NCBI GenBank assembly: GCA_945903635.1
Contig: CAMDOT010000002.1
Coordinates: forward strand, 1-64,000
Source of the DNA: Rhizobium sp. Q54
Lineage (GTDB): Bacteria; Pseudomonadota; Alphaproteobacteria; Reyranellales; Reyranellaceae
Length of the DNA stretch: 64,000 nt
Reading direction: 5' to 3'
The notes beneath the pieces were generated by a model, which was not told the origin of the DNA, ran no database searches, and saw only the letters and a list, made by a program, of their open reading frames with translations. Each line of letters starts with the position of its first letter. Position 1 is the stretch's first letter. A program made the position numbers and the translations under genes. Positions 1,955 to 27,975 of this stretch are shown here, piece after piece.

Positions 1955-2919
1955 GTCTCGCGTCGGAGGGCCTCACCCCTTCCGACGATTGGGACCGCGT
2001 CCTGCCCTTCCAGCTCGACGCGCTGGGCGTCCGCGGCCGCCTCGTGCGGCTCGGGCCCTCGCTCGACGCCATCATCGAACGCCACGGCTATCCGCTCGCC
2101 GTGGCGCGGCCGCTGGCCGAGGCGATGGTGCTGTGCGTGGCGCTGGCGACGTCGCTGAAATACGACGGCATCTTCACCCTGCAGATCAGCGGCGACGGCC
2201 CGATCCGCCTCCTCGTCACCGACCTCACCAGCGAGGGCGCGTTGCGCGGCTATGCCCAGTTCGATTCGTGGAAGCTTGCCGTGGCCCTCGGTACCGGCAA
2301 CCACGATGCGCCCGACGGTTATGTGCCCAAACTGTTCGGCCAGGGCCGCCTTGCCTTCACCGTCGACCAGGGCCAGCACACCCAGCGCTACCAGGGCGTC
2401 GTGCCGCTGGAAGGTCCGACTTTGGCCGACTGCGCCCACACCTATTTCCGCCAGTCCGAGCAGTTGCCGACCGGCATCAAGATCGTGGCCCGCCGCGATG
2501 AGACGACGGAAGGCCATCACTGGCGGGCATCGGCGCTGGTCGTCCAGCAGATGCCGGAGTTCGACGCCGGCCGCGTCGACATCGACCAGGACCAGCGCGA
2601 GGACGACTGGCGCAAGGCCGTCATCCTGATGGCCTCGGCCACCGAGAAGGAAATGCTCGACCCTGCGCTTCCGGGCAAGATGCTGCTGTTCCGCCTGTTC
2701 CATGCCGAGGGCGCGCGCCTGTTCGAGCCCCGCGCCTTCGCCGCCCGCTGCCGCTGCAGCCGCGAGCGCATCGACGGCGTGCTGAAATCGATCAAGCGCG
2801 AGGAGCTGGCCGACCTGCGCGATCCGCAAGGCCTGGTCGCCGTCACCTGCGAGTTCTGCTCAACCCAATACGCCTACGACGACGACGATCTCGACCGCCT
2901 CTACGCGTCCGCTGCGTAG
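1951..2919 (+). CDS. hslO: Hsp33 redox-regulated holdase chaperone
   Basis: Hsp33 is a cytoplasmic chaperone that is activated when oxidation releases its zinc. The C-terminus holds the zinc site as C267-X-C269 and C300-X2-C303, the spacing expected for the family. The chosen GTG at 1951 overlaps the argF stop as GTGA and gives 322 residues, a typical length; a GTG at 1942 is also possible. Linkage to argDF is a recurrent alphaproteobacterial arrangement. The gene runs into the repeat element at 2926. Confidence 0.93.
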
Positions 2920-3166
2920 ACGAATCTGGCCCAACTCGACACATAGATATTTGGCTCTCCGCACGCCGGAAAGCCAATAGCGACGGGCTTTTGCGCAGCT
3001 CATCGGGCACACCTGAAACGTCCGTGTGTTGTGCCCCAATGTGGGCCCGGATCTGTGCCCTGGCTTGCACGCGATTGCCTGTCCACGGTTCGAGGCGTGG
3101 CTCTTTTCCTGTTGGCGCCAGCACTGCCAGCACAAGACCCTTTGGGCGTAGATGGACTGCTCTCAC

Positions 3167-3186
3167 CCCTGGGTCAGGACCCAGGG
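3167..3186. other. Perfect inverted repeat inside element copy A
   Basis: Two 9-bp arms, CCCTGGGTC and GACCCAGGG, are separated by AG. The core GGGTC-AG-GACCC is also present in copy B at 27784-27795. The spacing from this core to the next conserved hairpin is nearly the same in both copies (57 and 58 bp). Confidence 0.8.
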
Positions 3187-3285
3187 CGGCTGCACCCGAG
3201 GCTCAGGGCCTGTCCCGCGGGCGTGCCGCGAGGGGTCGTGCCGGAATGGAAAAGGCCGGCGCAGTCCAGGCGCCAACCTATAGAA

Positions 3286-3315
3286 AATATAGGCATAAAC
3301 CTGCTGAACTTGCAA
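3286..3315 (-). promoter_or_regulatory. Predicted minus-strand sigma70-like promoter of element copy A
   Basis: On the minus strand, the -35 TTGCAA (3310-3315) is followed by an 18-bp spacer and the -10 TATATT (3286-3291). Copy B keeps the same arrangement. CCTATA and TATAGG arms flank the -10 in this copy only (3277-3293). Transcription would run leftward through the conserved hairpins. Confidence 0.6.
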
Positions 3316-3347
3316 CTTCCGTTCGCAGGAGCGAGCGCAGGCAGTGC

Positions 3348-3668
3348 CTACACGTCTTGCCAGTCGAACGCGAGCGGCGCCTCACGAAAGGCGAAGCGAT
3401 CGAGATGGCGGGCGACGGCACCCTTCAGTGCCTCGAGCTGTCCCTCGACGCTCGCTTCCAGCCGACATTCGAGACTGTCGCCCTTTGCGCTGAGCAGGAG
3501 CGTCGCATCGCCCGGCCCGTCGGCACCACGGGCATTTCGAGGAAAGACAACTTTGCCTGTCTCTGCCGTGAACTCGACAGCCAGATTGTGACTCCAGTGC
3601 TTGCACAGCTGCTGGAGGTAGCGGCTGCCGTTCGCGGTCGGCACGGCCGCGTTGCGGTGGACGGTCAT
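3348..3668 (-). CDS. DUF2218 family protein
   Basis: This 106-residue protein matches the DUF2218 pattern: a SRYLQQLCKHWSH segment near the N-terminus, the HLDRFAFRE segment near the C-terminus and a closing FDWQDV. The biochemical role is unknown. In other proteobacteria DUF2218 genes often sit beside siderophore-interacting ferric reductases and YqjI regulators. Here the ATG overlaps the stop of the YqjI-like gene by 4 bp, so the two are one transcription unit. A link to iron or metal homeostasis is inferred from this context. Confidence 0.85.
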   Translation of the reverse strand: MTVHRNAAVPTANGSRYLQQLCKHWSHNLAVEFTAETGKVVFPRNARGADGPGDATLLLSAKGDSLECRLEASVEGQLEALKGAVARHLDRFAFREAPLAFDWQDV

Positions 3669-4240
3669 AGGCGTTCGATCCTCTGCGCGGCCTCGTCGAT
3701 GATGGCGACCGCGTCGTGAACAGTCTGAGCCTGCACGCTGTCCCGGCCCAGGCGATGGATCAGCACCGCGCGCAGGTTGCCCATGGCACGGCGGACCGGC
3801 ATCGCATCGGTGCGCTCGCGCAGATCGGCAAGCTCGGCCAGCCGCGCGAACAGCGCCGCGACTTCTTCCTTCTTCTCGACGAGGTGTGACGTGCCATCGT
3901 CGGTGACGGCGAACGCCTTGCGCGCGCCCTCCGACTTCACCTCGGCGATGTGGCCCATCTCGTCCAGCATCGTCAGCGTCGGATAGACCATGCCGGGGCT
4001 CGGCACGTAGCTGCCGCCCGTCAGCTCCTCGATGGCGCGGATGAGTTCGTAGCCGTGGCGCGGCTCGTCGGCGATCAGCTTGAGCAGCACGAGCCGCAGC
4101 TCGCCCGAGTCGAAGACGCGCCGGCGACCGCGCCCCTCGCCGCGCTCGGCCTCGAAGCCGTGACCATGCCGGCTGAAGCCACGCCGACCGAAATGGTGCC
4201 GATGGGCTTCTTCGCCCCTGGAATGATGAAAGGGTCTCAT
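3665..4240 (-). CDS. PadR family regulator, YqjI-like, with His-rich N-terminus
   Basis: This is a 191-residue winged-helix PadR repressor. A His/Arg-rich N-terminal tail (about residues 1-40, with HH, HRHH and HGHG) precedes the PadR domain, which contains ELRLVLLKLI, HGYELIRAI and SPGMVYPTL. This layout matches E. coli YqjI, a nickel-responsive repressor of a ferric reductase gene, so metal sensing through the His tail is inferred. The ATG at 4240 is preferred over an in-frame ATG at 4273 because AAAGGAT lies about 9 bp upstream and a palindrome would otherwise fall inside the gene. No YqjH-type reductase gene is adjacent. Confidence 0.85.
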   Translation of the reverse strand: MRPFHHSRGEEAHRHHFGRRGFSRHGHGFEAERGEGRGRRRVFDSGELRLVLLKLIADEPRHGYELIRAIEELTGGSYVPSPGMVYPTLTMLDEMGHIAEVKSEGARKAFAVTDDGTSHLVEKKEEVAALFARLAELADLRERTDAMPVRRAMGNLRAVLIHRLGRDSVQAQTVHDAVAIIDEAAQRIERL

Positions 4241-4269
4241 TGACTGTATCCTTTTATGTTTGAACATAT

Positions 4270-4285
4270 TCAAGATATATCTTGA
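4270..4285. promoter_or_regulatory. Candidate PadR/YqjI operator, perfect 16-bp palindrome
   Basis: TCAAGATATATCTTGA is a perfect palindrome about 30 bp upstream of the regulator's ATG. An overlapping inverted repeat, TTGAA-N4-TTCAA, lies just closer to the gene. The position suggests autorepression of the regulator-DUF2218 unit. This is inferred from position and symmetry. Confidence 0.6.
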
Positions 4286-10716: not shown

Positions 10717-11928
10717 TCAGCCGCCCAGCGCCTGCACCAGGTCGGCGATGACATCGTCAGCGTCTTCCAGGCCGACCGAGAGCCGGACCGTGCCGTCGTT
10801 GATGCCGAGCCTGGCGCGCTCCTCGGCGCCGATGCGCATGTGCGTCGTGGTCGCCGGATGGGTGACCATGCTCTTGGCATCGCCGAGGTTGTTCGCGATG
10901 TCGACGAGCTGCAGGCGGTTCAGCGTCTCGAATGCCGCCCACTTGCCGGCCTTGAGGTCGAAGGTGACGACGCCGCCGAAGTTCGACATCTGCTTGGCCG
11001 CGAGCTTGTGCTGCGGATGGTCGCTGCGCCCGGGATAGAGCACGCGTGAGATGGCGGGGTGGCCGGCCAGCGCATCGGCGACGCGCGCCGCATTGGCACA
11101 ATGGCGATCGACGCGAAGACCGAGCGTCTCCAAGCCCTTTACCAGCACCCAGGCATTGAACGGGCTGAGCGATGGGCCGGTGTTGCGGATGATCGGCTGC
11201 AGCTTTTCCAGGATGAACTCCTTGGAGCCCAGCACCGCGCCCCCCAGGGTGCGGCCCTGGCCGTCGATGTATTTGGTCGCGGAATGGACCACGATATCGG
11301 CGCCCCACTCGAGCGGCCGCTGCAGCATCGGTGTCGCAAAGGCATTGTCGAGCACGACCTTGGCGCCGGCCTTGTGGGCGAGATCGCACACCGCCTTGAT
11401 GTCGACGATGTCGAGCATCGGGTTGCTGGGCGATTCGAACAGCACCGCCTGCGTCGGCTTCGACAGCGCCTTCTCCCAGGCAGCGAGATCGCCGCCGTCG
11501 ACGAACTCGCCCTGGATGCCGTACTTCGGCAGCAACTCGGCCACGATGTAATGGCAGGAGCCGAAGAGCTGGCGCGCCGCCACGATGCGGTCGCCTGACT
11601 TGAGCAGGGCGAGCAGGGAGAAGAACACCGCCGACATGCCGGTCGAGGTGGCGCGACAGGCCTCCGCGCCTTCGAGCGCGGCGAGGCGGTTCTCGAACAT
11701 GCTGACGGTGGGATTGCCGAAGCGCGAATACTGGTAGTGGTTGCCTTCGCCCCTGAAGGTGGCCTCGGCCTCCTCGGCGCTCGCATAGACGTAGCCCGAC
11801 GTCAGGAACAACGCCTCCGAGGTTTCGTCGAAGTTGCTGCGCTGCTGGCCGGCGCGTACGGCCCGCGTCTGCGGCCGCCAGCTCTTGATGTCCGCCTGCG
11901 TCTTCTTCCTCGGGATCGATCCGTCCAT
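10717..11928 (-). CDS. metZ: O-succinylhomoserine sulfhydrylase
   Basis: MetZ uses O-succinylhomoserine and sulfide to make homocysteine for methionine synthesis. The 403-residue PLP enzyme has YSRFGNPT, the SGMSAV-like TGMSAVFFSLLAL, the PLP Asp in VVLDNAFATP and the Schiff-base Lys in HSATKYIDGQGR. The start lies behind GAGGAGAG. Upstream are a SAM-II riboswitch and an intrinsic terminator, the usual arrangement for metZ or metX genes in alphaproteobacteria. tenA follows 6 bp downstream. Confidence 0.92.
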   Translation of the reverse strand: MDGSIPRKKTQADIKSWRPQTRAVRAGQQRSNFDETSEALFLTSGYVYASAEEAEATFRGEGNHYQYSRFGNPTVSMFENRLAALEGAEACRATSTGMSAVFFSLLALLKSGDRIVAARQLFGSCHYIVAELLPKYGIQGEFVDGGDLAAWEKALSKPTQAVLFESPSNPMLDIVDIKAVCDLAHKAGAKVVLDNAFATPMLQRPLEWGADIVVHSATKYIDGQGRTLGGAVLGSKEFILEKLQPIIRNTGPSLSPFNAWVLVKGLETLGLRVDRHCANAARVADALAGHPAISRVLYPGRSDHPQHKLAAKQMSNFGGVVTFDLKAGKWAAFETLNRLQLVDIANNLGDAKSMVTHPATTTHMRIGAEERARLGINDGTVRLSVGLEDADDVIADLVQALGG

Positions 11929-11978: not shown

Positions 11979-12011
11979 AAAAGCCCCCGACCTGGAAAGT
12001 CGGGGGCTTTT
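11979..12011 (-). terminator. Intrinsic terminator in the metZ leader
   Basis: A 13-bp stem (AAAAGCCCCCGAC with GTCGGGGGCTTTT) closes a 7-nt loop and is followed on the minus strand by a T-tract. It lies between the SAM-II aptamer and the metZ start. It probably acts as the expression platform or attenuator; no competing antiterminator was worked out here. Confidence 0.85.
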
Positions 12012-12020
12012 GCGAGCACC

Positions 12021-12080
12021 TCCGACCTTTTAGCGATGTTTAACGTGGTCGCAAGCCGGTCGGCTCAAATCTCCACGGAC
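12021..12080 (-). ncRNA. SAM-II riboswitch (metA/metZ type)
   Basis: Read on the minus strand, the leader has P1 arms CGTGG (12077-12073) and CCACG (12048-12044). Between them lies a GATTTGAGCC...GGCTTGC segment. After P1 come GTTAAAC and GCTAAAAGG (12034-12026), which form the pseudoknot and SAM pocket in this class. The pattern matches the compact SAM-II pseudoknot known from alphaproteobacteria. It sits directly upstream of a terminator and metZ, as expected for feedback control by S-adenosylmethionine. Confidence 0.9.
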
Positions 12081-12084
12081 CCCC

Positions 12085-12113
12085 TCTATATAGGCGAAGC
12101 CCGCCTTCTGCAA
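12085..12113 (-). promoter_or_regulatory. Predicted metZ promoter
   Basis: On the minus strand, TTGCAG (12113-12108) is followed by a 17-bp spacer and TATAGA (12090-12085). The predicted start falls just before the SAM-II aptamer. The -35 region reaches to within 6 bp of the end of the neighbouring upstream gene. Confidence 0.6.
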
Positions 12114-26635: not shown

Positions 26636-27472
26636 ATGACCTACAAGACCATTCTGGTTCACTGCGATGCCGCCAAGAACGCGGCGCACCGGCTCGATGT
26701 GGCAGCGGAGCTGGCGCAGCAGCAGGGCGCGCACCTGGTGGGCTTCCACGCCCGCCCGCCCTTCCGGACGCCGGTCTTCTTCGACGGCGGCTTTCCGATG
26801 GACGACCTGTTCAAGTCCTATGAGGCGAGCGCGGCGGCCGACCAGGCCACTGCCCTGGCCGCCTTCGAGAAGGCTGCCAAGGGCCGGCACCTGTCGACCG
26901 AATGGCGTGTCGTCGACGGCTTCGTCGACAGCGAGCTCGCCGTGCAGGCGCGCTATGCCGATCTCCTCGTGCTCGGCCAGACCGATCCCGAAAGCGGCCT
27001 GCCCGAACCCTCCGACCTGCCCGAGGCCACGGCGCTGGCGAGCGGCCGGCCCGTCCTGGTGGTGCCGCACATCGGCGTCGCGACGCCACCCGGCAAGACC
27101 GTGCTGCTGTGCTGGAACGCCAGCCGCGAAGCCGCGCGCGCCGCATCTGAGGCGCTGCCCATTCTGAAGGCCGCCGCCAAGGTGATCGTGCTGGTGATCG
27201 ATGCCAAGCCCTCGCCCGACGGCCACGGCGCCGAGCCGGGCGCCGACGTCGCCGGCTGGCTCGCCCGTCATGGCGTCAAAGTCACGGTCCAGCGCGACAC
27301 GGCGGCCGATGCCGACGTCGGCGCCACCATCCTGTCGCGCGCCGCCGATCACGCCATCGACCTGATCGTCATGGGCCTCTACGGCCACTCGCGGATGCGC
27401 GAGATGGTGCTGGGCGGCGCCAGCCGCACCCTGCTCGGCAGCATGACCGTGCCCGTGCTGATGGCGCATTGA
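26636..27472 (+). CDS. Universal stress protein with two UspA domains
   Basis: This 278-residue protein has tandem UspA folds (about 1-145 and 150-278). The second keeps the ATP-binding G-X2-G-X9-G-S/T pattern in GLYGHSRMREMVLGGASRTL. It starts 19 bp after the FNR-type gene behind GGAGGTAG, so it is likely in the same low-oxygen unit. Tandem Usp proteins are often under FNR control in other proteobacteria. The exact role is not known. Confidence 0.9.
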   Translation: MTYKTILVHCDAAKNAAHRLDVAAELAQQQGAHLVGFHARPPFRTPVFFDGGFPMDDLFKSYEASAAADQATALAAFEKAAKGRHLSTEWRVVDGFVDSELAVQARYADLLVLGQTDPESGLPEPSDLPEATALASGRPVLVVPHIGVATPPGKTVLLCWNASREAARAASEALPILKAAAKVIVLVIDAKPSPDGHGAEPGADVAGWLARHGVKVTVQRDTAADADVGATILSRAADHAIDLIVMGLYGHSRMREMVLGGASRTLLGSMTVPVLMAH

Positions 27473-27780
27473 GATCGCCTCAACCGATCCGGCTGGGCCC
27501 AACTTCGCGAAAAGGGCCCAAATCACGGTGTCGAACTAAGGCTCTCCAACCGCCGGAGTGCCAGCAAATCCAATCTTTTTGCGCGCCCGGCGGGCCCACC
27601 TGAACGCAGGGAGTGTTGGGCCCCGCGTTGGGCCCACACCTGTCCTCGATTCGCGCCGAGGATATTGTTTCGTTCCTTCGTTGCGGCCGTCGGTCGAGCG
27701 GGCCCGGCGCGCCGGTGGGCCGGCGACGTTGTTGCCTCCGCGACGGCCGTCGAGAAGGCGGGCTTGTTGTTTTGTCTGTC

Positions 27781-27798
27781 CATGGGTCAGGACCCACG
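27781..27798. other. Inverted repeat inside element copy B
   Basis: CATGGGTC-AG-GACCCACG forms an 8-bp stem with one mismatch around the AG spacer. The core GGGTCAGGACCC is identical to copy A (3171-3182). Read on the minus strand it is the second hairpin after the predicted promoter. Confidence 0.75.
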
Positions 27799-27909
27799 GC
27801 GGCGACCTTGCGTTCTGGGACGCGAACCCGCGAGCGGCGGCGGGCGGGTCTTTGCCGGAATGAAAAAGGCCGGCGTCCGCATTTACATGCCAAGCGCCAG
27901 CCTGACAGA

Positions 27910-27939
27910 AATATAGCACATATCCTGCTGAACCTGCAA
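27910..27939 (-). promoter_or_regulatory. Predicted minus-strand sigma70-like promoter of element copy B
   Basis: TTGCAG (27939-27934), an 18-bp spacer and TATATT (27915-27910) are found at the position equivalent to the copy A promoter. Spacer sequence GTTCAGCAGG is shared. Because the boxes are kept while much of the body has diverged, transcription of the element is a reasonable inference. Confidence 0.6.
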
Positions 27940-27975
27940 CTTTATGTTTGCGGGCATTTTGCTGGCACGATCGCG

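Follow-up and report, generated by a model that had tools for sequence, protein, structure and literature searches.

Two intergenic elements in a 64,000-nucleotide stretch of DNA (the window), here called copies A and B, appear to be members of a multicopy, structured non-coding RNA family in one group of Reyranella genomes, a reading that we hold at even confidence jointly with the whole antitermination explanation given below. The source organism, judged from a genome scan with the promoter pattern, is a Reyranella relative. Some 20-30 such elements per genome in the Reyranella group are probably non-coding RNAs whose expression is turned on along with that of a resident or domesticated phage. 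The family, its covarying folds, the spacer element, the early terminators and the common promoter were all read from sequence; we infer that the elements are transcribed under antitermination, and likewise whatever part the RNA may play in a phage or particle programme.

Extent of the family

The two window copies understate the extent of the family, which is large and previously unlisted. With the 5' half of copy A as a query, about 25 further places were found in the genome that contains the window (384 contigs, 6.38 Mb). R1, a covariance model built for the 5' domain, matched about 30 places in this genome, 25 in G019, 19 in G021, 28 in G023 and 7 in G018, counting matches with E up to 0.01, the weaker ones being partial or divergent. 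Few R1 matches, all of them weak, were obtained in the remaining same-genus genomes sampled. Measured between the presumed start and the last hairpin, full-length copies were 360-430 nt long. The pattern described in the initial annotation is far beyond chance, because about 30 further copies were found in the same genome by BLAST and the covariance model.

A scan of named genomes with the promoter pattern gave matches almost only in Reyranella and related Rhodospirillales metagenome-assembled genomes (MAGs), and the RNA elements were absent from the viral contigs, phage records and plasmid records searched. A Reyranella-type promoter unit was also seen in a Nitrospirae bin (GW928_bin.19, L115), which shares its sample series with a Reyranella bin, and the contig is probably misbinned.

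Layout of copies A and B

Copy A lies on the minus strand at 2920-3347 and takes up the whole gap from the stop codon of a convergent plus-strand gene (ending at 2919) to the end of a minus-strand gene (3348-3668). It was matched by the covariance model at 3279-3163 (E = 3e-26). Copy B, also on the minus strand, lies at 27473-27975 and fills the gap between convergent genes ending at 27472 (plus strand) and 27976 (minus strand), with a covariance-model match at 27903-27776 (E = 4.1e-14).

The initial annotation had placed a minus-strand promoter and two hairpin sequences in both copies, and an exact scan found them there. The promoter pattern TTGCA[A/G]-N18-TATATT occurred twice in the window, both times on the minus strand (3315-3286 and 27939-27910), against 0.0 expected from shuffling. 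The copy A promoter (3286-3315) consists of a -35 box TTGCAA at 3315-3310, the spacer element GTTCAGCAGG at 3309-3300 and a -10 box TATATT at 3291-3286; in the copy B promoter (27910-27939), the -35 box TTGCAG is at 27939-27934, the same spacer element at 27933-27924 and TATATT at 27915-27910. Behind each promoter comes a terminator-like hairpin with a T-run, termed H1. That of copy A (AGGTTGGCGC / GCGCCGGCCT, 3250-3279, minus strand) resembles an intrinsic terminator, starts at the presumed RNA start and forms helix 1, with a fold of -16.7 kcal/mol, and that of copy B (AGGCTGGCG...CGCCGGCCT, 27862-27903, minus strand) contains a nested GCAT/ATGC hairpin and folds with -24.6 kcal/mol.

The motif GCCGG-N11-CCGGC, annotated initially as hairpin 1, is present in letters on the minus strand of both copies (3260-3240 and 27874-27854), and it is not rare by chance (6 in the window versus 1.6 expected). 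The second annotated hairpin, GGGTCCTGACCC, at 3182-3171 and 27795-27784, is rare by chance (2 in the window versus 0.02 expected), and its distance from the first, given as 57-58 bp, was measured as 57 and 58 bases. Further minus-strand hairpins are P2 (helix 2; CTCGCGG / CCGCGGG at 3214-3232 in copy A, and 27827-27846 in copy B), P3 (helix 3; CCCTGGGT-CCTG-ACCCAGGG at 3167-3186 in copy A, and 27780-27799 in copy B), which includes the second annotated hairpin, a 3' hairpin with an 18-nt loop (7-bp stem GGGCACA / TGTGCCC at 3005-3036 in copy A; stem GGGCCCA / TGGGCCC at 27592-27623 in copy B) and a last hairpin (TTGGCTTTCCGGCGTGCGGAGAGCCAA at 2951-2977 in copy A; GGCACTCCGGCGGTTGGAGAGCC at 27540-27562 in copy B). 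A pairwise alignment of the two copies extended over their full length and contained two conserved blocks, the first located at the promoter with the 5' end, the second at the 3' end. Conservation is thus not limited to exactly the promoter and two hairpins, as had been claimed, since it also covers the last third of the element on the 3' side.

RNA fold and compensatory changes

The fold was examined on 67 copies aligned to R1. The three helices comprise H1, in which AGGYTGGCGC pairs with GCGCCGGCCT, P2, and the 8-bp P3 with its CCUG loop. Across their 25 pairs, 96.5% of the cells were paired, and 17 of the 25 pairs had changed on both sides. Cells with double changes numbered 190 in the alignment and 68 in shuffled controls, with none of 500 shuffles reaching 190, and pairing fell to 34-45% when partners were slid; the alignment had been fitted to the tested structure, a bias in its favour, and both controls were far off. 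Compensatory changes thus exceeded both the shuffled and the slid controls. Double changes were visible by eye in P3, where GGGT/ACCC is replaced by GACT/AGTC, and in P2, where CGCG/CGCG is swapped. P2, including that of copy B, covaried on the 67 copies (97.2% of cells paired, 6 of 7 pairs changed on both sides), and so did P3 (98.7% paired, 5 of 8 pairs changed on both sides). The second annotated hairpin is the inner part of P3 and thus survived the proposed check for uncompensated stem breaks in further copies.

The first annotated hairpin fared differently. Its GCCGG/CCGGC pairing was found in 97.6% of cells versus 97.5% in shuffles, with a single double change, and covariation supports it in neither copy A nor copy B. 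We rejected it as an RNA stem: the GCCGG arm is the 3' arm of H1, where its partner is AGGYTGGCGC at the presumed start of the RNA. The proposal of an RNA-coding element with its own promoter is supported by the strong compensatory changes in the 67 copies. The element is not a lone two-hairpin small RNA, however; multicopy and mosaic, with a length of 360-430 nt, it also has its promoter in common with phage-type genes.

The stem of the 3' hairpin varies freely but in step, and its loop is exactly 18 nt, starts with ACA or ACG and usually ends with AGG or TGG. Among 52 instances near a promoter, selected on the loop and inner pairs only, 48 kept at least four of the five outer pairs. The 32 distinct sequences contained 35 double-change cells versus 10.4 after shuffling, a number reached in 0 of 500 shuffles. 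This hairpin recurs even where the rest of the cassette body is different. A kissing interaction between the CCUG loop of P3 and CAGG of the 3' loop was considered and dropped, as copies with CCUA (L011, L013 and L014) lacked UAGG when inspected by eye. Several bodies on the family's promoter (L026, L031, L040, L053, L060, L015, L020, L046 and L021) carry a repeated signature of their own that ends in ACA (TGTCACA, GGCACA or TGGACA) and is matched by its inverse near the 3' end, which gives the impression of a stem code particular to each cassette.

Promoter, spacer element and early terminator

The promoter was analysed on 66 elements chosen by the RNA model only. It contains a TTGACA-like or TTGCA-like -35 box and a TATATT-like -10 box spaced by 17-18 bp, and GTTCAGCAG with at most one mismatch lies within the spacer of 55 of these elements. 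By sequence, the family promoter is of the sigma70 type with a conserved TTCAGCAGG element between -35 and -10. A whole-genome search with the 16-mer, allowing up to two mismatches, returned 73 places versus 1 for the reversed control.

A hairpin and T-run follow 30-45 nt past the presumed start in the RNA elements. Counting those whose T-run begins 26-76 nt after the presumed start, a strict intrinsic terminator was detected in 62 of 115 distinct promoter instances versus about 2% in upstream or shuffled DNA. H1 is the early terminator of the RNA elements, and the other promoters are followed, similarly far on, by a hairpin unrelated to it. The sequence TAnnnT was found 11-13 bases after the start of the -10 box in 34 of the 66 elements; it resembles a promoter-proximal, -10-like pause element in consensus only, and it overlaps the start of H1. 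Just upstream of many promoters (for example L005, L006, L008, L010 and window 27958-27968), the motif TGC-N2-GCA recurs, as in GTGCTTGCACTGCCAGCA; it is possibly an activator site.

Phage-type genes on the same promoter

A head-tail gene block, with a major head protein (phrog_212) and, further on, a tail protein (phrog_376), lies behind the same promoter and leader, as do terminase small subunits (phrog_4044) and large proteins whose matches are weak and lysin-like and whose ends vary. Phage or particle genes make up only part of the promoter set. The promoter was also found in three IMG/VR contigs (L138, L140 and L141), at least two of them with podovirus-type structural genes beside it; hits of a looser promoter pattern in viral contigs were mostly uninformative and were disregarded. 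Where both were tested, the promoter-positive genomes of the genus were the RNA-positive ones. The head-protein lineage (at least 80% identity) was present in 5 of 8 promoter-positive versus 0 of 33 promoter-negative genomes in the sample, a difference that partly reflects common ancestry; the lack of a detected head gene in three promoter-positive genomes is perhaps caused by fragmented assemblies.

The large proteins, which lie behind the promoter or within related phage-type clusters (L065:7626-9671, L068:5339-7321, L273:6736-8652 and L140:2881-4578), share an N-terminal region (...EPWPVDEHTIRVDEMFARQLDTEF...) and differ in their C-terminal parts, with weak matches to phage lysins. In this respect they resemble exchangeable particle cassettes of the effector or toxin-immunity kind.

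The order of parts in the element, a sigma70-type promoter, a hairpin with a T-run and a mosaic body (P2, P3, a variable middle and the 3' hairpin with the 18-nt loop), suggests a model in which the promoter would fire but transcription would halt at the early hairpin and yield a short leader. An antiterminator encoded by the phage or particle would then load at the spacer element, in the manner of lambda Q and Caulobacter GafZ, and RNA polymerase would pass H1, so that the full RNA would be made along with the particle genes. Such an antiterminator-controlled RNA family, with start, early stop and factor-dependent read-through together with particle genes, has in our estimation about an equal chance of being right or wrong. 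It is doubtful that the elements form a dispersed regulon of this kind in the fullest sense, with 20-30 or more mosaic cassettes per genome that have exchangeable bodies and a common 18-nt-loop 3' hairpin, are read only with a phage-like particle programme and supply an RNA that is a working part of it (scaffold, cargo or regulator).

One point against antitermination is that the promoter seems strong enough for plain constitutive use. The elements might be host genes for small RNAs, of an ordinary multicopy kind and driven by a constitutive sigma70 promoter, with the early hairpin just part of the fold and the phage genes having borrowed a strong host promoter. The near-consensus promoter, including its TTGACA forms, the strong RNA covariation and the location of most copies in host intergenic gaps between convergent genes agree with this explanation. 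We nevertheless consider it rather unlikely, given that a spacer element is conserved beyond the -35 and -10 hexamers and a T-run follows the first hairpin, that L211 and L228 have replaced the H1 sequence by unrelated hairpins yet keep the T-run (weaker in L211), and that phage leaders contain early terminators that are unrelated in sequence and similarly placed.

Genomic position and turnover

A convergent downstream gene was found for 53 of 75 copies, a count that rests on heuristic gene calls, and the element fills the gap to the facing stop codon. This position, together with the GC-rich hairpins throughout, would suit transcription insulators, that is, hairpin-rich bidirectional terminators between convergent genes with an incidental promoter. 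Insulation leaves unexplained the conserved promoter and spacer element, the use of the promoter before phage genes and the conserved loops (CCUG and the 18-nt ACA...AGG), and we regard it as highly improbable.

At the site of copy A in G019, both neighbours are kept and a different cassette stands behind a related promoter; at the site of copy B in G021, both neighbours are kept (94%) and yet another cassette is present. Flanks at further shared sites were about 86-99% identical versus about 67-72% for the element, with modules lost or replaced. Single-linkage clustering placed nearly all cassette bodies in one group because they have modules in common, so no clean typing of cassettes is claimed. 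At the sites compared, no clean empty site with both flanks conserved was found, and no terminal repeats were recognised in the copies read.

Over at least 2 kb, G023 matches copy A and its flanks at 100% identity (compared at window 2500-4273 versus G023:C12), which suggests recent exchange or a chimera in MAG assembly. Contamination in the form of a shared contig is unlikely, since identity over the wider 18-kb alignment is 95%; local exchange or chimerism remains.

Intergenic repeats of the REP/MITE type are multicopy, hairpin-rich and often located between convergent genes, and the family is like them in all these respects. It differs from them in being a long composite element with non-palindromic RNA domains that covary and an oriented, conserved promoter. 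Selfish, non-autonomous elements, mobile or repetitive (phage satellites or MITE/REP-like), that carry a promoter and have a fold serving mobility, possibly as single-stranded DNA, would account for tens of copies in one group only, for the different element or cassette type at orthologous sites with flanks of about 78-97% identity and for the mosaic modules; covariation does not separate RNA from single-stranded DNA. Against mobility, no common terminal inverted repeats were recognised among the copies, no transposase was seen in the surroundings that were read around copies, several sites are common to species and thus indicate long residence, only the transcribed side has a conserved promoter, and the 3' end reaches the neighbour's stop codon with no defined border. 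We judge mobile elements to be improbable, though less so than insulators.

Relation to known systems

Lambda-type late promoters combine pR', the Q-binding element (QBE), an early terminator and Q antitermination (PMC7171158), and the Caulobacter gene-transfer-agent promoter has a GafZ-binding element between -10 and -35, with terminator bypass and particle genes (PMC11150451). Because the layout found here, with a spacer site, terminators and particle genes, is that of lambda Q and GafZ, we infer that a factor may load at the spacer. Like the lambda system, the present promoters have a conserved element at the promoter, a hairpin terminator soon after the start and, in part of the set, late-type phage genes downstream. 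Unlike it, they occur in dozens of dispersed copies and lead mostly into structured RNA. The likeness to GafZ extends to the alphaproteobacterial host, the spacer element, the particle genes and, presumably, terminator bypass. However, the GafZ element is a GCGCCCG-CTGGCGC palindrome, whereas that found here is TTCAGCAGG, and GafZ has a single target in Caulobacter, as opposed to about 70 sites with at most two mismatches here.

Also unlike both systems, no Q-family protein (PF06530, PF03589) and no DUF6456/GafA protein (PF20057) above cut-off was detected in any of the 8 promoter-positive genomes. The missing homologues are weak evidence, since GafZ resembles neither Q nor AlpA, and Q21 and lambda Q are likewise dissimilar (PMC11150451). 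If correct, the explanation would mean that a phage-type antitermination switch is used chromosome-wide, at dozens of sites and mainly for RNA. The spacer element and the early terminator make the idea directly testable by simple reporters, and the 3' hairpin could serve as bait for a protein partner.

GOLLD and ROOL are likewise structured non-coding RNAs with a phage link, and GOLLD expression goes up in phage lysis (PMC12286853). The present family differs from them in its length (360-430 nt versus more than 800 for many GOLLD RNAs), in being dispersed in multiple chromosomal copies and not in phage tRNA islands, and in its lack of an Rfam match. Neither copy reached a gathering score in Rfam 15, and a permissive search was also without a match; hits of single copies to mir-H2, BcKCsr2 and CRISPR-DR10 were rejected as weak chance matches far below the cut-offs. 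The elements would accordingly represent, if the reading is true, a structured RNA family absent from Rfam, in an alphaproteobacterial group for which the libraries searched hold no such RNA. Elsewhere in the window, an ordinary SAM-alpha riboswitch (RF00521, 59.3 bits) lies on the minus strand at 12010-12086, upstream of a minus-strand gene ending at 10717.
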